From: a virus
Reading direction: 5' to 3' (one strand)
Virus record (IMG/VR): IMGVR_UViG_3300009184_003334
Span: 1 to 20,222 of that record
Length of the DNA: 20,222 nt
How positions within the stretch are numbered: position 1 is the first letter of the stretch; every line of letters starts with the position of its first letter. Shown piece after piece: positions 3 through 15,964 of the stretch. The notes under the pieces were generated by a model. The model saw nothing but the letters and a program-made list of their open reading frames with translations. It had not been told where the DNA came from and did no database searches. The translations under genes were made by a program, and so were the position numbers.

Positions 3-1160
3 ATGATAAATCTGCCAATAAAATTAGTTAAAGACACTATTTCTAATAAAGAAATAGATGAATTGTGTTCTTGGTTATCAACTTATCCTCAACTAACAAA
101 AGGAAAAATGACAGAACAATTTGAACAAGAATGGTCAAATTGGTTGGGTGTGAAATATTCTGTCTTTGTAAATTCGGGATCTTCTGCTAATCTAGGCATG
201 TTTTATGCTTTAAAGGAATCGAGAAGATTGCGTAATAATATTGTAGTTGCACCATGTGTTTCTTGGGTAACTACAGTAAGTCCTATTATACAATTAGGAT
301 TTGATTTGATTTTATGCGATACAGATAAAGAAACTTTAGGGTTGGATATAGAGCAATTAGAGCATATTTGCAAAGCATATAAACCTGCGTGTTTAATTTT
401 GGTACATGTACTGGGCATTCCAAATAAAATGAAAGAAATTGCAGATATTTGTAAAAAATACGATGTAATATTATTAGAAGATTCTTGCGAAAGTGTTGGT
501 TCATTACATGGTGGCGATAAAACAGGAACTTTTGGTGTAATGTCATCTTTTTCTACTTATTTTGGACATCATTTTTCTACAATAGAAGGCGGATTAATTT
601 CTACTAACGATTTTGAATTATATGAAATACTAAAATCTATTCGTTCTCATGGTTGGAGTCGTGATTTGTGTAAGGACACACAAGAAAAACTTAAAAAAGA
701 AAATAATGTTGATGATTTTAGAAATTTATATACATTCTACTATCCGGGTTTTAATTTAAGATCTACAGATCTACAAGCATTTTTGGGTATAAATCAGTTA
801 AAAACATTAGACATAAAAAATCAAAAACGATATGAAAATTTACTTAAATACCATTCACTGATTAAAAATAGTTATTGGAAAGTAAACTTTACAGAATTCA
901 TCAGCAATTTTGCTTATCCCATAATACATCCTAAGAAAAATATTGTAGTTGAAAATTTAAAAAATGCTCAAGTGGAATGCAGACCTCTTGTGTGTGGAAG
1001 TATGTCCCGACAACCATTCTATTATAAAAGATATGGTGAAAAAATTTATAGTTTTTCGGATATAGTTCACGATTACGGTGTTTATCTACCAAACAACCCA
1101 GATATGACCAGTCAAGAAATAGAATACATATGTGAGATAGTAAACAGGAGTATTTCATGA
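3..1160 (+). CDS. DegT/ColD-like PLP-dependent sugar enzyme, likely 3-dehydratase
   Basis: A 385-aa fold-type I PLP enzyme of the DegT/DnrJ/EryC1/StrS family, which acts on nucleotide-linked keto-sugars. Visible family blocks are NSGSSAN (residues 57-63, phosphate-binding region), LLEDSCESVGS (157-167, containing the PLP-binding Asp) and STYFGHHFSTIEGG (184-197). In aminotransferases the last block carries the Schiff-base lysine, six residues before the Glu of EGG. Here that place is taken by His189, followed by His190. This is the known signature of the ColD and E1/RfbH branch, which removes the C3 hydroxyl instead of transferring an amino group. IRSHGW, YYPGFNLR and ECRPL also fit ColD. I infer a 3-deoxysugar such as a 3,6-dideoxyhexose, but the substrate is unknown. 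The ATG lies at base 3, so the upstream context is lost; length is normal for the family. The end overlaps the next gene by 4 bases (ATGA). Confidence 0.85.
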   Translation: MINLPIKLVKDTISNKEIDELCSWLSTYPQLTKGKMTEQFEQEWSNWLGVKYSVFVNSGSSANLGMFYALKESRRLRNNIVVAPCVSWVTTVSPIIQLGFDLILCDTDKETLGLDIEQLEHICKAYKPACLILVHVLGIPNKMKEIADICKKYDVILLEDSCESVGSLHGGDKTGTFGVMSSFSTYFGHHFSTIEGGLISTNDFELYEILKSIRSHGWSRDLCKDTQEKLKKENNVDDFRNLYTFYYPGFNLRSTDLQAFLGINQLKTLDIKNQKRYENLLKYHSLIKNSYWKVNFTEFISNFAYPIIHPKKNIVVENLKNAQVECRPLVCGSMSRQPFYYKRYGEKIYSFSDIVHDYGVYLPNNPDMTSQEIEYICEIVNRSIS

Positions 1161-1738
1161 ATAATAAATCATATTTAGGTGGTTGTGTTATACAAAATGA
1201 TATTGGAACATACGCACCACAAGTTTGGGATAAACTTATAGAATTATATTCACCAAAAAGTGTAATAGATGTTGGTTGTGGTGCAGGCCATTCTCTTTAT
1301 TATTTTCTTTCTAAGGGAATAAGTGGTATAGGCGTTGAAGGATTTGAAGAAGCAATTAAACGATCTCCAGTGCAAAGTAACATCGTACAACACGATTATG
1401 TGGAAGGGGCTTATGTTCCAGATAATATGTTTGATCTTGCTTGGTGTTGTGAATTTGTAGAACATGTTGAAGAAACTTATTTAGATAATTTTATGAAAAC
1501 TTTTGAAAAATGCGAATACGTTGCAATGACACATGCAGTTCCAGGGCAACCAGGTCATCATCATGTTAATTGTCAGCCTGCTTCATATTGGATAGAAGTT
1601 TTTAAGAAATATGGATTTGATTATCTTGAAAATGATTCTTTATTATTAAGACGCACATTATATACAGAAAGTGGTACATTGACAGAAAATGGTTCACATG
1701 TACGAAACACATTAATGGTTTTTAGGAAAACAAAATGA
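1157..1738 (+). CDS. Class I SAM-dependent methyltransferase
   Basis: A 193-aa Rossmann-fold methyltransferase. Motif I is VIDVGCGAGH (residues 36-45), which binds S-adenosylmethionine, followed by an acidic residue in GIGVEG. A motif resembling the Methyltransf_11/23 families is seen in FDLAWCCEFVEHVEE. The histidine-rich stretch QPGHHHVN (near residues 132-139) follows the strand after motif III. The protein is compact, with no extra domain, so the acceptor cannot be read from it. Its place between a keto-sugar dehydratase and glycosyltransferases, coupled to both by 4-base ATGA overlaps, suggests O- or C-methylation of a sugar or nucleotide sugar. That role is inference from context. A DNA methyltransferase is unlikely, because no target-recognition domain or DPPY-type motif is seen. 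Confidence 0.8.
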   Translation: MNNKSYLGGCVIQNDIGTYAPQVWDKLIELYSPKSVIDVGCGAGHSLYYFLSKGISGIGVEGFEEAIKRSPVQSNIVQHDYVEGAYVPDNMFDLAWCCEFVEHVEETYLDNFMKTFEKCEYVAMTHAVPGQPGHHHVNCQPASYWIEVFKKYGFDYLENDSLLLRRTLYTESGTLTENGSHVRNTLMVFRKTK

Positions 1739-2634
1739 TTAATATAGAAACTCATAAAGAACTATATCTTTTTGATTCTATTGAGAGAGTCAAGTCTTCA
1801 TTGGATTATGCCAAAACTTTACCTTCCAGTGGATTTCAAGATCCCGTTACTTTTCATTTTTATTGGAGAGTACCAAAAGAATTTTCTAGAAAACAAGTAT
1901 TACCTATTAAATCTGCTATAGTTTCACAGAATAGAAAAAATACAAAGTTTATTTTATGGTCTAATGTAGATCTTTCCACCAATCCTCATGTAAAACCTTT
2001 GCTTCCATATATTGAAACTAGAATTTGGGATGCAAAAGAGGAATCAAAAAATACACCATTAGATAATGCAAATGTACTAAGGGGTGTTTTGGACGATCCT
2101 CTTTGTTATTTGGGTGGTGATTTATTTAGATTATTATGTTTGCACAAGTATGGTGGTGTTTATATTGATATGGATGTTGTTGTTTTGCGCGACTTTGAAC
2201 CTATATTGCCTTACGAATTCATGTATCAGTGGGGCTCTACAGGAACTGGCAATCCAAATGAACCCTATTTGAAACAAAATGGAGCAATTATGCGTTTGAA
2301 AGAAAAAAGTCAATTAACGCATGATTTGTTGAATGAACTGGCAAACACTCCAGCAAATCCAAATACTACTTGTTGGGGCAGTGAATTGTATTATAAAGTA
2401 TGGCAAAAAAATAAAAATTGGATAACATTTCCTTGTGCTTGGTTTAATACAGAATGGGGAATGAGCAGAACAATACAACCTTTTAAGAAAAATTTTGAAG
2501 GGAATGAAAGTTCTGAATTATTTGATGGTGCATTTACTTGGCATTGGCACAATAAATGGGACGAACCAATTCAAGATGGATGTAAATTTCAAATTTTAGA
2601 AAATTTAGTAGAAGAAAAATTTAGGCAATTATGA
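1735..2634 (+). CDS. Glycosyltransferase with DXD motif (GT32/capsular type)
   Basis: A 299-aa protein with the core of the Gly_transf_sug (OCH1/GT32-like) family. Family blocks are IPKIxHFYW-like FHFYWRVP (residues 40-47), then GGDLFRLLCLHKYGG (127-141), then VYIDMDVVVL with the metal- and nucleotide-sugar-binding DXD motif at Asp145-Met-Asp147. A later W-rich block (FTWHWHNKW) fits the C-terminal acceptor side of this family. The enzyme should transfer a sugar from a nucleotide sugar in the cytoplasm; no signal peptide or membrane segment is seen. It overlaps its neighbours by 4 bases on each side, so it is one step of the sugar cassette. Donor and acceptor are unknown. Confidence 0.8.
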   Translation: MINIETHKELYLFDSIERVKSSLDYAKTLPSSGFQDPVTFHFYWRVPKEFSRKQVLPIKSAIVSQNRKNTKFILWSNVDLSTNPHVKPLLPYIETRIWDAKEESKNTPLDNANVLRGVLDDPLCYLGGDLFRLLCLHKYGGVYIDMDVVVLRDFEPILPYEFMYQWGSTGTGNPNEPYLKQNGAIMRLKEKSQLTHDLLNELANTPANPNTTCWGSELYYKVWQKNKNWITFPCAWFNTEWGMSRTIQPFKKNFEGNESSELFDGAFTWHWHNKWDEPIQDGCKFQILENLVEEKFRQL

Positions 2635-3428
2635 AAATAATTAGTTACAGTCTCTGGGGAAATAAAGCCGAATATGTTATAAATGCAATAAAAAATGCTG
2701 ATATTGCATTGCAATTGTTTCCGGGTTGGGAATGTAGATATTATATCTCTCCGAATGTAAAACAAGTTTTTGTTGATGAGTTGCGTAAAAGACCAAACAC
2801 AAATATAATAATCCAGTCGGCAGATGAAAGTTGGAATGGTATGTTTTGGCGATTTTATGCAGCAAAGGATGCTATTGGTAAAGATGACGTTATGATAAGT
2901 CGTGATGCCGATAGCAATTTAAATACAAGAGATAAAGCGTGTGTGGATCAATGGTTGTCTAGCGATAAAGACTTTCATATAGTACGAGATAATTGTGCTC
3001 ATCAAACTAGAATTATGGGTGGTATATGGGGAGTAAGAAATGGTTTACTTTCCAATATAATGTCATTGATACAATCATATACAAGAAAAGAAACAAATAA
3101 TCGTAAAAACATAGATCAAGAATTTTTATCACAGATAATTTATCCAAGAATTGTGCGTAATGCATTTATTAACGATCCTTATAGATTTTTTAATGATGAA
3201 ACTTCGCACCCTATGCCTATTCCCAGAGTCGGTCCATTCCTCCCATCAGAGAAACCACCACAGGAAGATTGGCCAGATCTTTCTTCGCCTTGGAGAACAG
3301 AAAAAATAAACAATTTGGTATATTGTGGTCATTGTCACAGAATCCATGATAATGATTATATTGGTAAGTTTGCTGTAAATTTTACAGAAGAAGATTACGC
3401 TAAATATCCATTTAAGGAGACACAATAA
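2631..3428 (+). CDS. Putative glycosyltransferase with DAD motif
   Basis: A 265-aa cytoplasmic protein that I place among GT-A-like glycosyltransferases with moderate certainty. It begins with a short beta strand (MKIISYSLWG). After a region with WNGMFWRFYAA it has VMISRDADS (residues 88-95), where Asp92-Ala-Asp94 looks like a DXD metal site. DKDFHIVRDN and MGGIWGVRNG follow, blocks of the kind found in phage and bacterial proteins of this type. The C-terminal part contains a possible metal-binding or structural cluster, YCGHCHRIHDND. It is coupled to the glycosyltransferase upstream (4-base overlap) and to the next gene (1-base overlap TAATG). Substrate is not deducible. Confidence 0.6.
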   Translation: MKIISYSLWGNKAEYVINAIKNADIALQLFPGWECRYYISPNVKQVFVDELRKRPNTNIIIQSADESWNGMFWRFYAAKDAIGKDDVMISRDADSNLNTRDKACVDQWLSSDKDFHIVRDNCAHQTRIMGGIWGVRNGLLSNIMSLIQSYTRKETNNRKNIDQEFLSQIIYPRIVRNAFINDPYRFFNDETSHPMPIPRVGPFLPSEKPPQEDWPDLSSPWRTEKINNLVYCGHCHRIHDNDYIGKFAVNFTEEDYAKYPFKETQ

Positions 3429-4276
3429 TGTATTGGCAATGGAAATCGTTCGATGATCATAGTTTTCCTTATTTAAATGGAAACAGTTTTGCTGTTCAAT
3501 GTAGACATATCTGGAATTATGACGGTTATAAGATAAATCCAAAAGCAAAACACGATAACTGGGTATTTGTAAAAACAGATTATATCTCTAATTTCTTTTC
3601 AAATGTAAATTTACAGCATCCCTTCGTTATGTTCACTCATAACAGTGATTATTCAATAAACGAAAATCACTTGAAATTTTTAGATGATCCCAGAATTATT
3701 GCTTGGTTTGCTCAAAATGTTGCTATTAAACATCCAAAATTAAAACCAATTCCTATTGGTATTGCTCCGGCGGGATATGCTCATGGAGATATTTCTGCTA
3801 TAAACAAAATACGAGATGAACAAAACATAAAAACTAAAATGTTTTATGCAAATTATAGCATACAAAATAATAGAGCAGAAAGAGAATATTGTTTACAACA
3901 AACTGGTATTCCTTTAGAATCTGATATAAATGGTGGTTGGAATGGATTTGCGGGTGGGTATAAACTTCCTACAACCTTTGAAGGTTATTTACGAGATCTA
4001 AGTAAATCTTATTTTAGTATTTCACCCAAAGGAAATGGTATTGATTGTCATAGAACTTGGGAATCGTTATATGTTGGAACAATACCTATTGTTTCTAGAA
4101 GTGAAGTTACCGACGCACACAAAGATATGCCAATTATAATTTTAGATGATTGGGCAGATTTTAAGAAAATATCTTTTGATGAAAACTTATACCATAAAGT
4201 TTGGAATAATTTTAATATTGGGGATCTTCATATGGACAATTATTTAAAAAGAATAATGAAAGAGATACCCCAATGA
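3428..4276 (+). CDS. Exostosin-like (GT47-type) glycosyltransferase
   Basis: A 282-aa protein. The C-terminal block from about residue 190 to 225 reads as the exostosin-type signature: a strand SKSYFSISPKG, then GIDCHRTWESLYVGTIPIV. Arg209 and Glu212 are in the usual positions for nucleotide-sugar binding in GT-B-like exostosin proteins, and the 'W/E.L..G.IPI' pattern is the most recognisable element. The N-terminal half (VFVKTDYI, FVMFTHNSD, KPIPIGIAP) fits the acceptor-side half of small phage and bacterial exostosin-like proteins. No membrane anchor is visible, so it should act in the cytoplasm. It overlaps the epimerase gene by 4 bases. It is the third transferase of the cassette, so the product may be an oligosaccharide of at least three steps; that count is inference. 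Confidence 0.7.
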   Translation: MYWQWKSFDDHSFPYLNGNSFAVQCRHIWNYDGYKINPKAKHDNWVFVKTDYISNFFSNVNLQHPFVMFTHNSDYSINENHLKFLDDPRIIAWFAQNVAIKHPKLKPIPIGIAPAGYAHGDISAINKIRDEQNIKTKMFYANYSIQNNRAEREYCLQQTGIPLESDINGGWNGFAGGYKLPTTFEGYLRDLSKSYFSISPKGNGIDCHRTWESLYVGTIPIVSRSEVTDAHKDMPIIILDDWADFKKISFDENLYHKVWNNFNIGDLHMDNYLKRIMKEIPQ

Positions 4277-5181
4277 AAATTATAGTAACAGGTGGTTGTG
4301 GATTTATTGGATCAAATCTAGTAGATGAATTAGTAAGACAAGGACACGATGTTACTGTTATGGATGATCTCTCATCCGATGCACACGATCAATTCTATTT
4401 CAATCCACAAGCAAAATACTATCATTACGATATTACAAATGAACATCTTGTAAATGGTGTATTTGATCGTCATGAACCTGAGTACGTTTTTCATTTAGCG
4501 GCAGAAGCAAGAATACAAAATTGTATACTGAATCCCGGTAGAGCATTGGATATTAATACTTTTGGTACTCAAAATGTATTGAATGCTGCCAAAATGGTTA
4601 AAGCAAAACGTGTAATGTTTTCGAGTACTTCTGCCATTTATGGATTATCAAATAATGATGTACAACGAGAATCTGATAAACCAGATTGCTTAAATGCATA
4701 TTCGTATTCTAAATTCTTTTCTGAAGGATTATGCAAGATGTATTCTGATTTATATAATCTTGATACTGCTTGTTTTAGATACTTTAATGTATATGGTAAC
4801 AGACAACCAAAGCGCGGTTCATATGCACCTGTAATCGGTGTATTCTCTCGTCAAAAGAAAGCAAACCAATTGATGACAGTTGTTGGGGATGGTTTGCAAA
4901 CCAGAGATTATGTTCATGTATCTGATGTTGTTTCTGCTAATATTGCAGCAATGAAGCACGATACAAATCTTCGTGGTAAGATTATGAATGTTGGTACTGG
5001 TACTTCATATTCTGTTTTAGACCTTGCAAAAATGATGGGTGGAGAGTATACTCATATTGCACCAAGAACCGGAGAAGCAAGACAAACTTGCGCCAATATT
5101 TCGGTAATACAAGAAACTCTTGGATGGCAACCAACAAAAAATCTCAAAGAGTATATGGAGAATAAAGAATATGATACTTGA
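4273..5181 (+). CDS. NAD-dependent sugar epimerase/dehydratase (SDR family)
   Basis: A 302-aa extended short-chain dehydrogenase. The NAD-binding motif is VTGGCGFIGS (residues 5-14, GxxGxxG), the substrate and cofactor region is HLAAEA (74-79), the catalytic Ser/Thr is in SSTSAIYG (117-124), and Tyr143 with Lys147 form YxxxK in YSYSK. FRYFNVYG, VVGDG and RDYVHVSDV match UDP-glucose 4-epimerase-like proteins (GalE/WbpP group). It probably interconverts a nucleotide sugar or reduces and epimerises the product of the first gene in the cassette; GDP-colitose synthesis, for example, uses a ColC epimerase/reductase after ColD. Which reaction it catalyses cannot be decided. Its last 11 bases overlap the start of the gp33 gene. 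Confidence 0.88.
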   Translation: MKIIVTGGCGFIGSNLVDELVRQGHDVTVMDDLSSDAHDQFYFNPQAKYYHYDITNEHLVNGVFDRHEPEYVFHLAAEARIQNCILNPGRALDINTFGTQNVLNAAKMVKAKRVMFSSTSAIYGLSNNDVQRESDKPDCLNAYSYSKFFSEGLCKMYSDLYNLDTACFRYFNVYGNRQPKRGSYAPVIGVFSRQKKANQLMTVVGDGLQTRDYVHVSDVVSANIAAMKHDTNLRGKIMNVGTGTSYSVLDLAKMMGGEYTHIAPRTGEARQTCANISVIQETLGWQPTKNLKEYMENKEYDT

Positions 5182-6419: not shown

Positions 6420-6451
6420 GAGGACGGTCCAAAAGACCGTCCTTTCTTTTT
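6420..6451 (+). terminator. Intrinsic terminator after gp32
   Basis: A 9-bp GC-rich stem, AGGACGGTC (6421-6429) paired with GACCGTCCT (6435-6443), has a 5-base CAAAA loop and is followed by TTTCTTTTT. It ends the gp32 transcript just before the convergent minus-strand gene, whose stop codon is at 6450-6452. On the minus strand the hairpin is not followed by a T-run, so it should act mainly for the plus strand. Confidence 0.9.
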
Positions 6452-8339
6452 ATGTGTGGTTGCCCATACTTGCACTTCTGCTAAGATCTTTTGTTAGTGC
6501 GGCATGCATACCACTATCATCTGGTGGTGTTGCTGATCCGCCACCATTATCTCCACCTCCACCGGACAACAATGTTGGTTGTTTTGCGGGTGCGGTATTG
6601 TAGTTGTTTATTATAGTGTTTCCGCCGGCAACTGGTGTGGGTGCTGCAATCATATCAGGCGCACGCATTTGCATTGCTTGATTTTGTAATTGATCTCCGC
6701 TTGGTGCAGTTGGTTGTGCTGGTTTTATTTTTGCTGCATCGTTTTCTTGTGCTTGAGATATTGTTTGTTGTAAATTTGCACTAGTAGCACCAACAGTTTC
6801 ATTAGATGAAGTTACTTCTTCTATTCTATTTAATGCGTTTTGTTTAGTTTTTTCTTTTGCATCAGTCAGATACATTACTCCTTTTCGGATAGTTCCCCTT
6901 GTTGGATCTAAAAGATCTGACCAATGCCTTGAGGCTTCTGTTTGTGGCATTAATTCTATTTCTTGATTATTTGGCAAAATATAAGCATATCTTGCTGCTG
7001 TTGCAATATCTGGATTTTGTTTTAATCCACCTTGTGTTACTGGATTACTATCGAATAATAATTCTTTATCTTTGTCTGATAAAGTTTTATCATCTTTAAT
7101 TCTGTTTATCAAAGTTGAATGTTCATCTTGTAAACTTTTTAAAGAATTTGATACCAAATCTGTTCCTGCGCCCAACAATCCACCAGTTTGTTCTACATCT
7201 CCGGCTATAATACCTTTTTTAGATATTTGATCTGCTAGATCTTTTAATACTTCTTTCAAGTGTGCAGAAAAATCTTGTATTTGTGTGGAATACTTATCTA
7301 ATGCTTTTGTTCGTGGACTGGCAGTTTCTGCTCGTTTCTTTTTATCTTGCAATAATTTATTTAAATCTTCAATACTTGTTGAAGAAGAAACATTCATACC
7401 AAGAGTAGGAATTGTTGTTTTTCCTGTTTCTAGATTTGTAACAGTTCTTTCTGGAACATACATCCCACTTTCTTGTACTTCTTTTCTTTTTTCTTCCGGC
7501 ATTTGCTCCAATTCTTTCTTCATTTGTGATTCCGACACGAATGAAGTTTTTTCTCCTTCTGGAGTGTTTTCAGTTTTTTTATAAACTTTTTCTCCATTAG
7601 CAAATGTATCTGTTCCTTTTGTTGTAGGTTTTGCTAAAGCCGCTTGAGCGCGTTTTTCACTTGCTTCTAAACCGGGTTTTATTAGTAAATTATACAAAAG
7701 CACACCCAATCCAGCAGCACCAGCAATAACAATTAATCCTATTAATAATTTTGCCATCAACATTAATAAAGGACCAATTGAAGAACCAAGTGTAGAAATT
7801 ATATTTGGTATAACTTTTTTTAGTATACCGTTATCTGATGCCATTTCTCCAATTTGTTTTTTCTCGGCGAGTTTGTTAATACCAGATGTTTTTTTACCAA
7901 ATATTTTTTCTTTGATTTTTTCTTTGCCCGCATCAAGGCCGCGTTTTAATAGAGCCGATGGTGTATACTTTTCCATAGGATCATCTATTAATTTTTTCTT
8001 TCTTACCAATTGTACTCTTGGTACGTCCGATTTTCTTTTTACAAAATTTAAGTGTTCTTTTAATATCTTCTTGATATCTGACAACAATCCTTGTTCTGTT
8101 TTATTAATTTGCACTAATTGTTCAGAACTATTTGATGTATTTGTAGTTGTCGAAGAACTACTAATATCTGTAATACCAGTTCTTCCCCTTTTTGGAGAAA
8201 CTGTAGGATTTGTGTTATTTTCAGCAAAACTTTGGTTTGTATATTTTTTAACAAGATTTGTAGCAACAACTCCCGTTCCACGAGAAGGTCTTCCTGATTT
8301 TCTTGGACGGGGTAATGTTGGTTTGGTTTCTTCTGCCAT
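6450..8339 (-). CDS. Candidate tape-measure/tail-length protein
   Basis: A 629-aa protein without a clear sequence match that I recognise. The N-terminus is basic and low-complexity (PRPRKSGRPSRG, then Ser/Thr-rich to residue 73). A coiled-coil-like stretch with many Lys/Glu follows (residues 80-165), then a strongly hydrophobic segment at about 186-220 (glycine-rich, membrane-like). A long polar, helix-prone middle comes next, and the tail is Pro/Gly/Asn-rich, with TIINNYNTA near residue 575. A single hydrophobic patch in a long helical protein is typical of tape measures. The size is close to T4 gp29 (590 aa). It directly follows the gp26 chaperone-family gene and its downstream ORF, the usual place of a tape measure. 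The ATG is one base after the upstream TAA, implying coupled translation. A structural hub or fibre-associated protein remains possible. Confidence 0.55.
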   Translation of the reverse strand: MAEETKPTLPRPRKSGRPSRGTGVVATNLVKKYTNQSFAENNTNPTVSPKRGRTGITDISSSSTTTNTSNSSEQLVQINKTEQGLLSDIKKILKEHLNFVKRKSDVPRVQLVRKKKLIDDPMEKYTPSALLKRGLDAGKEKIKEKIFGKKTSGINKLAEKKQIGEMASDNGILKKVIPNIISTLGSSIGPLLMLMAKLLIGLIVIAGAAGLGVLLYNLLIKPGLEASEKRAQAALAKPTTKGTDTFANGEKVYKKTENTPEGEKTSFVSESQMKKELEQMPEEKRKEVQESGMYVPERTVTNLETGKTTIPTLGMNVSSSTSIEDLNKLLQDKKKRAETASPRTKALDKYSTQIQDFSAHLKEVLKDLADQISKKGIIAGDVEQTGGLLGAGTDLVSNSLKSLQDEHSTLINRIKDDKTLSDKDKELLFDSNPVTQGGLKQNPDIATAARYAYILPNNQEIELMPQTEASRHWSDLLDPTRGTIRKGVMYLTDAKEKTKQNALNRIEEVTSSNETVGATSANLQQTISQAQENDAAKIKPAQPTAPSGDQLQNQAMQMRAPDMIAAPTPVAGGNTIINNYNTAPAKQPTLLSGGGGDNGGGSATPPDDSGMHAALTKDLSRSASMGNHT

Positions 8340-8340
8340 G

Positions 8341-8490
8341 TTATTTTAATTTCTGGTTTCTTTTATTTATTTCTTCTACATGTTTTATTAACAAAGAAAT
8401 ATATACTTTTCTTTCCCATGGCAACATATTTTCTAATTCCGTAAGGCTGTATTTGTGTTCTTGAATCAGTACAAAGTTTGTTTTGTACAT
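8341..8490 (-). CDS. Small tail-chaperone-like ORF, probably expressed as a -1 frameshift extension of gp26
   Basis: This reading frame gives 49 aa from an internal ATG (8488-8490): it contains HKYSLTELENMLPWERKVY and a Lys/Glu-rich helix ending in TAA at 8341-8343. The pattern of aromatic residue, 'S..EL..M..WE', then an amphipathic helix is what one sees in the T half of G/GT tail-assembly chaperones. The ATG has no convincing Shine-Dalgarno sequence. The frame is open upstream through RLGLSSETLQN to the slippery heptamer at the end of gp26, so a -1 slip gives a 293-aa fusion (233 residues of gp26 plus 60). Independent translation from the ATG by coupling to the gp26 stop, 26 bases upstream, is the alternative. 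The tape-measure candidate starts one base after its stop. Confidence 0.7.
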   Translation of the reverse strand: MYKTNFVLIQEHKYSLTELENMLPWERKVYISLLIKHVEEINKRNQKLK

Positions 8491-8516
8491 ATTCTGAAGG
8501 GTTTCACTTGACAGCC

Positions 8517-9221
8517 CTAGACGAAAAAATCAATAAAATTCTCCAATGAAATCTTTATTGGTTTATTTGTATATGGGGAAATCGCTTCACTCTCATATTT
8601 AAGTGCCGGCATAGTCTCAAAGAATACATTAAGTTTAGAATACATTCCTTGTGTCAAACTTTCCACAAAGTCTTGCAGTTCTTGCTTGCTGTAATCTTTT
8701 ACATCATACACAGATTCGCCATCATAAATTTTATCAATACAACTAGTCAATATCTTTAATCCATTTTCCGCTTGTGATTTTTTAGAATCCAAAGTCAACA
8801 CGGTTTTAAGTGTTGGATATTTCATTTCAATAAACATCTTATCTGAAACTTTTATCTTCTTATTGTGGGTTGGAGACTTCACAATTTTTACACTATTCAA
8901 ATCAATTTGACCGTCAAATCTTTTATTAACTTCTTCATCCAAAACACTTATTTGAATGTCTTCTCCTATAGATTTTTCTCGTAATTTTAGGAAAATGTAT
9001 TCAGCGTCGAATGATGGAAGATTATCTACATCTACTTTATCTAACAAGCAATTTTTAATTACTTGATTTAATGCCAAGACTATTTGATTTGGATCTTTGG
9101 ATTCTGTTGCAATCAACAGAATTTTTTCTTCTTTAACCAAAAATGGTCTAAATTTTATAGTTTGATTATTTGATGGTAAAGTCAATTCAAAAGTAACAAT
9201 ATCAATTTTTGGTAAAGGCAT
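8517..9221 (-). CDS. gp26: gp26-like baseplate/tail assembly protein
   Basis: A 234-aa protein of the T4 base-plate protein family (gp26; 208 aa in T4). The recognisable block is IKFRPFLVKEEKILLIATESKD at about residues 21-42, followed by a helix with QVIKNCLLDKVDVDNLPSFDAEYIF. The remainder is a mixed alpha/beta domain (LSFLKLRE-like segment, KMFIEMKYPTL) ending ENFIDFFV. In T4 this protein takes part in hub assembly and is not a main structural component; in many phages the equivalent gene is the tape-measure chaperone. Shine-Dalgarno GGAGAT lies before the ATG. Upstream is the tube-like gene, 15 bases away. Its last codons carry a slippery heptamer that leads into the next small ORF. Rare fusion product and common short product would be the G and GT forms. 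Confidence 0.8.
   Translation of the reverse strand: MPLPKIDIVTFELTLPSNNQTIKFRPFLVKEEKILLIATESKDPNQIVLALNQVIKNCLLDKVDVDNLPSFDAEYIFLKLREKSIGEDIQISVLDEEVNKRFDGQIDLNSVKIVKSPTHNKKIKVSDKMFIEMKYPTLKTVLTLDSKKSQAENGLKILTSCIDKIYDGESVYDVKDYSKQELQDFVESLTQGMYSKLNVFFETMPALKYESEAISPYTNKPIKISLENFIDFFV
8523..8529 (-). promoter_or_regulatory. Candidate -1 ribosomal frameshift site T TTT TTC
   Basis: Read on the minus strand, the end of gp26 is GAT TTT TTC GTC TAG, so the heptamer T TTT TTC fits X XXY YYZ in the correct phase. In the -1 frame a TGA lies immediately before it (8530-8532), and the zero-frame TAG follows 3 bases after it. The only window in which a slip could join the two frames therefore contains exactly this heptamer. 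A weak AGGG/CCCT stem (8515-8518 with 8498-8501) starts 4 bases downstream; it is too short to count as firm support. Confidence 0.65.
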
Positions 9222-9236
9222 TATTTAATCTCCAAA

Positions 9237-9755
9237 TCATTGTGTAAGCGATGCGCTCTGGTACGAAAAAGTTGCAGTTTGCTTCAAGTATGAATCTTGC
9301 TCATCATAAGAATGCTGCACGGTATCTATATTTGTTAAAATTACGTTTTGCAGTTCGAGAGCATAACACTTTGTGTTGTCTACGTTATATGCTTCGATTT
9401 TTATGGTTCCCCATAAATCTTGTGCATATTTAATAAATGTATCACCCGAAGTGTTGATTATTGCTGCATCTATGCACTTGTATAATCCCTGTAGGACTGC
9501 ACCTTTATTGTCTGCTCTGAATGTTATATTACAAGAATATGCGGGTTGTAGCGTATATGGTATTTTCATTATTGGTTGATTGTTATATCTACCATCTATG
9601 GTTTCCAATCCATATGCTGGAAATTCTACAGATTCGATTCTTTCTGGTTTCCAGTTAGCGCAAGGAAGATTTATTTCGACAGAAAATCTATTTGGTCTTA
9701 CTAGACCAAGTACTGCGTTTATTGCTTGATTTACGTCTGTTAGTGGTTTAGCCAT
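9237..9755 (-). CDS. gp19-like tail tube protein
   Basis: A 172-aa protein with the features of T4-type tube proteins (gp19, 163 aa, and the related tube domains of gp48/gp54). These are an N-terminal helix, then RPNRFSVEINLP (residues 20-31), IESVEFPAYGLETIDGR with the typical 'EFPA/LPG' turn before the long beta-hairpin, a KIPY block, NITFRADNKG, and a C-terminal strand set ending in YSYQ-like FSYQSASL. Tube subunits stack as hexameric rings around the tape measure. The gene order tube, chaperone, tape measure on this strand supports the call. It could instead be a tube-initiator paralogue. The ATG overlaps the stop of the gene before it by one base (TAATG). Confidence 0.6.
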   Translation of the reverse strand: MAKPLTDVNQAINAVLGLVRPNRFSVEINLPCANWKPERIESVEFPAYGLETIDGRYNNQPIMKIPYTLQPAYSCNITFRADNKGAVLQGLYKCIDAAIINTSGDTFIKYAQDLWGTIKIEAYNVDNTKCYALELQNVILTNIDTVQHSYDEQDSYLKQTATFSYQSASLTQ

Positions 9756-14431: not shown

Positions 14432-15964
14432 ATGTCAAATTGCGATAATCCACAACCAAATCAAAACCCAGAAACAACATCTGGCAAAGGAAGCAAAGGA
14501 CGAGGCAGACCTGTTTCAGGTAGGAAGCCAAAATTACCAGGCGAATCTAAAGCACCAAACACAACACCGTCAACAAAAGGTAAAACTACACCCAAAGGTG
14601 GTTCAACTGGTTCTTCTAGCAATGCTGGTGCTAGTGCTAGTCCATCCGGTGGTGGAGGAGGAGGTGGTGGAGGCGGTGGCGGCGGAGGTGGGGGTGGAAC
14701 TGGGGGGAAATCAGCAAACAAGCAATGGGTGCAACCAGAAACTGAACACGGCAAGAAAAAGGGAAAGAAGATAAAGGAAAAAGATCCTTGCGGTGGTAAA
14801 GAGAAAAAAAGCAAGGAATTCAAACCAGTTTCAATTTATCCATTTAACAAGACATTCCAAACGGAAAGCGGTCACGTTATTGAAATGGATGATAGTCCCG
14901 GCAGTGAAAGAATATCACTATTCCATAGATCAGGATCGAATGTTGAATTCTATCCAAATGGTGATATGCTCGAACAGCATGTAAGAGATAGTTATTTCCA
15001 TGTATTTCGAGATCAATATGTGCATTTAGGTGGTTATTCTACGATTACCGTTGATAAAGGACTAAAAGTTCTAGTAAATAACGACGAAGACGAAAATACT
15101 CCTGAACAGAATGTAAATTATGATATACACGTTGCAGGAAATGCGAATGTAAACATCTACTTAGAAAAAGGAAATATGAACATTTCCTTGGTTAAGGGTG
15201 ATGTGAACATGAGACTCGAAGAAGGCGATGTTAATGTTCTACAAGACAAGGGAAATTACAATCACACAGTTGGTGGAGATTATAATTTAGAAGTTGCTGG
15301 ACATATGCACGTTGTTGTAGGTAAAGATGTAGTAAATGAAATAGGAGGAAACCGCGATGAAAGAATTGATGGTGACTTCGATCAAAAGTACCTTACAAAG
15401 AGTTCGGGTTATTTGGGTGAATATTTGTCGGGTGATAAAAGAACTTATGTCAGCGGAAATCAGATAAACGAAGTAACTAATACTATAAGTGAATCCGCAA
15501 AGTTTAAAAAGCAAAAATACGGAGCAGATGAAAAGGATGTAACCGGAGCTTGTGTTACAAAAGCCGGTGGATCTTTGTGGCTAGTTGGCAAAACAGTAGC
15601 AATACAGTCACTTACCCATATGGTTATTCGTTCAAATGAAGATATGGATATATTTTGTGCAGAACTTGGAAAGGGAAAGTTAAAGATATACTCAGCGGAT
15701 ACTGCCGATTTCATTGCAGAACGCTATGGATCGCTTAGATCTGCACAGGATAAGATTGAAATAAAATCACCAACGATGGTAAAGGCTTTGACTCCAAAGA
15801 TATACTTGCCAGAACAAGAATCTGCACCTCCATTCAACCCAGAGGCAAAACCACTGAATAGTGTAAATCCTGCTCAATATTCCGTACCAGAAGCAGAAAA
15901 GACCAAGGATCATATGAAAAATAACAAAAAAGAATGGATAAAAACTAAGGCCAGAAAACAATAA
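14432..15964 (+). CDS. gp5 C-terminal-like beta-helix spike protein with poly-Gly linker
   Basis: A 510-aa protein. Residues 1-130 are low-complexity: Ser/Thr/Pro/Lys-rich, a run of 17 glycines (residues 73-89), then a lysine-rich stretch. From about 138 the VgrG/gp5C motif starts: FNKTFQTESGHVIEMDDSPGSERI, then SNVEFYPNGDM. A long set of short beta repeats follows, for example GNMNISLVKGDVNMRLEEG and VGGDYNLEVAGHMHVVVG, as in the trimeric beta-helix needle of T4 gp5 and VgrG. The helix extends to about residue 470, then a charged tail. The needle punctures the host outer membrane. The ATG is three bases after the TAA of the gp5 OB gene and in phase with it; only a weak GGGA Shine-Dalgarno is visible, so coupling or stop readthrough would be efficient ways to express it. 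Confidence 0.85.
   Translation: MSNCDNPQPNQNPETTSGKGSKGRGRPVSGRKPKLPGESKAPNTTPSTKGKTTPKGGSTGSSSNAGASASPSGGGGGGGGGGGGGGGGGTGGKSANKQWVQPETEHGKKKGKKIKEKDPCGGKEKKSKEFKPVSIYPFNKTFQTESGHVIEMDDSPGSERISLFHRSGSNVEFYPNGDMLEQHVRDSYFHVFRDQYVHLGGYSTITVDKGLKVLVNNDEDENTPEQNVNYDIHVAGNANVNIYLEKGNMNISLVKGDVNMRLEEGDVNVLQDKGNYNHTVGGDYNLEVAGHMHVVVGKDVVNEIGGNRDERIDGDFDQKYLTKSSGYLGEYLSGDKRTYVSGNQINEVTNTISESAKFKKQKYGADEKDVTGACVTKAGGSLWLVGKTVAIQSLTHMVIRSNEDMDIFCAELGKGKLKIYSADTADFIAERYGSLRSAQDKIEIKSPTMVKALTPKIYLPEQESAPPFNPEAKPLNSVNPAQYSVPEAEKTKDHMKNNKKEWIKTKARKQ

Follow-up and report, generated by a model that had tools for sequence, protein, structure and literature searches.

A gp26-type gene of a T4-type phage is very probably extended by -1 ribosomal frameshifting into a gp51-like domain

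The window analysed here is the whole of a 20,222-nt stretch of DNA from an uncultured T4-like phage (IMG/VR record IMGVR_UViG_3300009184_003334, positions 1 to 20,222). On its minus strand, a gp26-type gene and a short extension in the -1 frame are located between a tail tube-like gene and a tape-measure candidate. The features of the locus are as follows.

9237-9755, minus strand: tail tube-like gene upstream of gp26 (phrog_45 tail tube, E 2.5e-15)
8517-9221, minus strand: gp26, putative short chaperone (TAC-N or G-like), 234 aa, zero frame (PF12322, phrog_150, AlphaFold)
8541-8544, minus strand: GGAG, Shine-Dalgarno-like putative stimulator, 11 nt before the heptamer (anti-Shine-Dalgarno duplex -6.4 kcal/mol)
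8523-8529, minus strand: slippery heptamer T TTT TTC, in phase, kept in 147/151 loci
8517-8519, minus strand: zero-frame stop codon TAG of gp26, read from the sequence
8442-8519, minus strand: downstream RNA structure, predicted and putatively stimulatory (an outer stem pairs 8519-8511 and 8450-8442, an inner one 8488-8482 and 8475-8469)
8341-8523, minus strand: -1 frame extension, a T-like or gp51-like domain (60 codons, 8523-8344, plus TAA, 8343-8341)
6450-8339, minus strand: tape-measure candidate, 629 aa, assigned by position and length only

The minus strand reads ...AAT TTT ATT GAT TTT TTC GTC TAG at the end of gp26, with the heptamer at 8529-8523 phased as X XXY YYZ in the gp26 frame. 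The -1 frame is closed by TGA at 8532-8530 and opens at 8529, with CGT (8523-8521) as its first new codon. It terminates with TAA at 8343-8341, and a single base separates this stop from the ATG (8339-8337) of the 629-aa ORF. The initial annotation had described this gp26 ending, the phased heptamer and a -1 frame that is closed by TGA and then open for 60 codons; all of these match base for base, and recalculation gave the same product sizes of 234 aa for gp26 and 293 aa for the fusion. The gene order is tube, gp26, extension and tape-measure candidate. These neighbours are those originally named, the tube-like gene being identified by phrog_45 and the tape-measure candidate by position and length; the latter matched nothing in Pfam, in PHROGs or among phage records, nor its HTVC008M counterpart.

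Slippery heptamers are common in AT-rich DNA and the main ORFs of the window contain 51 in-phase X XXY YYZ sites. Hence the heptamer alone is little proof. The T TTT TTY motif is depleted across the window (24 found versus 54 expected), and T TTT TTC at 8529-8523 is its only in-phase sense-strand copy in the main ORFs. Upon dinucleotide shuffling, the 180-base extension stayed open in 67 of 20,000 sequences. By itself the window sequence is suggestive of a frameshift, and relatives are needed as evidence.

Homologs of gp26 were drawn from IMG/VR and from named phages, giving 151 gp26 loci; 59 representatives with less than 70% identity were used for statistics on codons, starts, Shine-Dalgarno elements and folding. 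A search of a bacterial genome collection yielded no relatives. An in-phase T TTT TTY was present within the last gp26 codons in 147 of the 151 loci, a degree of conservation which indicates that the frameshift observation is real and not due to chance. The -1 extension was conserved in all 123 distinct sequences carrying T TTT TTY, the open frame measuring 56-69 codons except where a contig ended first. In Pseudoalteromonas phage XG4 (L073), another classic heptamer, T TTT TTA, is found at the end of the gp26 ORF starting near position 3501. A U UUU UUN heptamer was missing in just three loci, all of the Ackermannviridae type. These three (L062, 2450-3342; L063, 2438-3402; L072, 2435-3391) keep the -1 extension without T TTT TTY, and the sequences at gp26 ends of this type are CTT TTT CGC TAATG, ATT TTC ATT TAA and CTT TTC AAG TAATGG. 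Slipping of a single tRNA or stop-start reinitiation may operate there.

The codons at the slip site are constrained as well. In all 59 representatives, a codon ending in T precedes the site and TTT is the first Phe codon, a pattern with a probability of about 10^-19.8 under within-gene codon usage, uncorrected for phylogeny. Elsewhere in these genes, FF is seldom written as T TTT TTY (4 of 45 dipeptides). Substitutions in the extension of the relatives, counted by codon position of the -1 frame, fall mostly on the third position (9484), followed by the first (4444) and the second (2064), and this third-position excess indicates that the -1 frame is protein coding. Conservation of heptamer and -1 frame together with the codon constraint support the earlier proposal that gp26 would be read by frameshifting into a 293-aa fusion. 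The check suggested earlier bears this out: relatives keep the heptamer and an open -1 frame but not the internal ATG.

At the protein level, gp26 of the window matched PF12322 (T4_baseplate, E 4.8e-55) and phrog_150 (baseplate hub, E 9.7e-61); T4 gp26 itself matches PF12322 with E 8.8e-64. The extension, for which a T-like character had been claimed from its sequence, is homologous to the gp51-type domain: it matched phrog_634, "baseplate hub assembly catalyst" (gp51), with E 6.7e-22 and the C-terminal part of phrog_150 with E 1.1e-6. The length of the phrog_150 profile already takes in the extension. T4 gp26 matches positions 14-235 of this profile and T4 gp51 positions 13-280, and T4 gp51, like the extension, hits phrog_634. 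With a profile built from the 59 fusion proteins, T4 gp26 matched up to position 236 (E 4.6e-19 at Z = 1e6) and T4 gp51 matched from 74 to 280, unbroken across the junction. These profile matches indicate that T4 gp26 corresponds to the short form and T4 gp51 to an in-frame long form. The T4 gp51 gene is separate from gp26 and divergently transcribed, and T4 gp26 ends GAG TTC TTT GAG and contains no heptamer. The window combines a TAC-N domain like T4 gp26 with a C-terminal domain like the end of T4 gp51. The AlphaFold model of gp26 had a mean pLDDT of 88 and hit other phage gp26-type proteins; comparison with the HK97 tail assembly chaperone 2ob9 gave a Foldseek probability of 0.77 with a non-significant E of 1.2 and a TM-score by target of 0.43. 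No PDB sequence was matched by the gp26 profile.

Two further signals, which the initial annotation did not mention, flank the slip site and support slipping. Upstream, an element of the GGAG/GGAGG type ending 8-11 nt before the heptamer was present in 30 of the 59 representatives, for the most part at 9-10 nt. The mean duplex energy in this region was -4.97 kcal/mol for the 59 relatives versus -3.38 (sd 0.18) for synonymous recodings, corresponding to a z of -8.7. The element is strong in TTTTTTC lineages and weak in TTTTTTT lineages, the poly-T clade mostly being without it. Downstream, the window is predicted to fold into a long outer stem around a hairpin (-21.4 kcal/mol, z -4.0). For the 60 nt beginning 13 nt past the first base of the heptamer, the mean z across the 59 relatives was -2.4 (se 0.26) with dinucleotide shuffling and -1.53 (se 0.19) with amino-acid-preserving recoding, for which a control region gave +0.16; folding z was near zero in regions farther upstream or downstream. 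RNAalifold found no common structure in either clade, because the register of the stem differs between lineages, and a raw column covariation scan returned only noise. In the poly-T clade, a six-pair stem (columns 18-23 with 62-67) had 82.7% of its cells paired and showed modest covariation, with a score reached in 9 of 500 shuffles.

Taken together, we consider it very probable that a single gp26 gene gives rise, by a -1 slip of the ribosome, to two tail-assembly chaperones, one short and one long. Most ribosomes would terminate at TAG 8519-8517 and release the short chaperone of 234 aa. In a minority, contact with GGAG behind and the RNA structure ahead would slow the ribosome, both Phe-tRNAs would shift their pairing on U UUU UUC back by one base, and the product would be the 293-aa fusion with the gp51/T-like C-terminal domain. 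The sequence evidence shows the heptamer, the open and selected -1 frame with its conservation, the stimulators and the homology to T4 gp26 and gp51, and from it we infer the occurrence of slipping, its efficiency and the chaperone action. The efficiency could be low, given that in E. coli U_UUU_UUA and U_UUU_UUU are reported to promote shifting far less than A_AAA_AAG does (Atkins review, PMC5009743).

Lambda G/GT offers a mechanistic model. Homology and gene position suggest G- and GT-like roles for gp26 and the fusion, and by this analogy many short copies would coat the tape-measure protein and a few long copies would recruit tail-tube subunits. The lambda slip site is G GGA AAG, different from U UUU UUC in the window, and the likeness is drawn without a claim of sequence similarity. 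As proposed for the window, one lambda gene with tube and tape-measure flanks yields a short and a -1 extended chaperone, the long form adding the T domain (PMC5009743); the window has the overlapping ORFs, an in-phase slip site shortly before the first ORF ends, and the tube-like and tape-measure candidate genes on either side. With E. coli dnaX the window shares a three-part layout of upstream Shine-Dalgarno element, phased heptamer and downstream structure (PMC5009743). Such an element is expected at about 10 nt in dnaX-like systems and the window has GGAG at 11 nt; the downstream structure is also found, its register varying by lineage. The window differs from dnaX in its Phe-tRNA heptamer and in that slipping would yield the longer product, whereas in dnaX it yields the shorter one.

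The tape-measure candidate may be coupled to this event. Its ATG, 1 nt past the extension stop, is without a Shine-Dalgarno sequence (+0.2 kcal/mol), and in 49 of 58 representatives the start of the next gene overlaps the extension stop or is at most 5 nt away. We put forward, as a tentative and rather unlikely elaboration, that the slip is set by the three dnaX-like signals and that the tape measure is translated mainly by frameshifted ribosomes, which would fix the ratio of long chaperone to tape-measure protein.

Public annotation implies a different origin of the extension, namely that gp51 is a separate protein whose translation starts independently or through stop-start reinitiation. HTVC008M, S-PM2, P-SSM2, phiM12, syn9, Mosig and K491 all carry separate, unjoined CDSs, and in S-PM2, P-SSM2 and phiM12 an ATG overlaps the gp26 stop or lies 2 nt past it. 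An ATG occurs within the first 14 extension codons in 12 of the 59 representatives. However, the other 47 have none there, and 31 of the 59 lack ATG, GTG and TTG alike. At 8490, the first in-frame ATG of the window's extension, the anti-Shine-Dalgarno duplex reaches just -1.1 kcal/mol compared with -6.4 kcal/mol at the gp26 start. A start at 8490 would also sacrifice the conserved beginning of the domain, RLGLSSETLQN. Sequence conservation of the extension sets in directly at the heptamer. With a distance of at least some 20 nt to any post-stop ATG, GGAG is unfit for initiating gp51. Separate initiation as the sole source of the extension was thus rejected on the poor start at 8490 and the absence of starts in most relatives, and we regard this explanation as very improbable. 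Some lineages, for example S-PM2, P-SSM2 and phiM12, could possibly make free gp51 in addition. Elsewhere in the public records, no gene is annotated over the extension in VmeM-32, Cronobacter S13, Ah1, S-CAM4, S-MbCM7 and ACG-2014d (L059, L061, L067, L154, L155 and L156); in the remaining records examined it is given as a separate gp51, often truncated, and in none as joined.

Slippage of RNA polymerase on the T run, giving mixed mRNAs from which the fusion arises by ordinary translation, is less probable still. A T run is present in every relative that bears the heptamer, but that of the window consists of only six T, and slippage has been described for about nine (PMC5009743). Transcription slippage also requires no phased heptamer, Shine-Dalgarno-like element or structure, yet all of these were found, and it was rejected on the short run and on the presence of these translational signals. 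A sequencing or assembly error, or decay of an in-frame fusion gene such as T4 gp51, in which the two domains are fused in frame, has next to no likelihood and is refuted by independent relatives: gp26 plus extension is identical in two other IMG/VR contigs, and dozens of divergent phages change frame at the identical place.

The central idea of a single frameshifted gene for both chaperones is not new; it was published in 2022 and the window is one more divergent T4-like member. Vladimirov and colleagues are said to have found the frameshift conserved in several T4-like groups, T4 reportedly using genes 26 and 51. The initial annotation had asked whether such frameshifting was already described for T4-like gp26/gp51 pairs, and the published answer is that it was (Vladimirov, Gautam & Davidson, Virology 2022, doi 10.1016/j.virol.2021.11.003). 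That study, which identified the tail assembly chaperone genes of T4-like phages, is cited in PMC10885494 and PMC12846349. As relayed there, some T4-like phages do not frameshift but carry a short gene alongside a longer fusion gene (PMC10885494), and poly-T -1 slip sites occur in TAC-N genes of T4-like phages (PMC12846349). Before this, G-T frameshifting had been called conserved "except T4" (PMC5009743, 2016), and gp26 and gp51 had been listed as hub assembly chaperones, gp51 being essential and of unknown function (PMC3004832, 2010). The T4-like gp26/gp51 chaperones belong to the same family as those of the window and follow the same TAC-N/TAC-NC logic; unlike the window with its single frameshifted gene, T4 has two separate genes (PMC10885494). 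In another phage group, Vandenendeviridae/Andersonviridae with phage Adele, a conserved -1 slip at a GTTTTT motif is situated near the TAC-N end, upstream of the tape measure (PMC12846349).

A limited literature search found no description of a Shine-Dalgarno-like element or RNA structure at T4-like slip sites; both may already be reported in the 2022 paper. Possible additions of the present work are the conserved upstream element and downstream structure at the T4-like chaperone frameshift, and the finding that the public records examined either omit the extension or list it as a gene of its own, frequently truncated. One chaperone gene would be frameshifted in the T4 relatives analysed here and split in T4, which makes the function of gp51 testable.

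Elsewhere in the window, six head-to-tail ORFs at 3-5181 adjoin the tail genes and were read, by eye only, as a sugar aminotransferase, a methyltransferase, glycosyltransferases and an NAD-dependent epimerase. In the ORF at 14432-15964, about 17 glycines follow one another without a break, which makes for a long G-rich repeat in this AT-rich phage.
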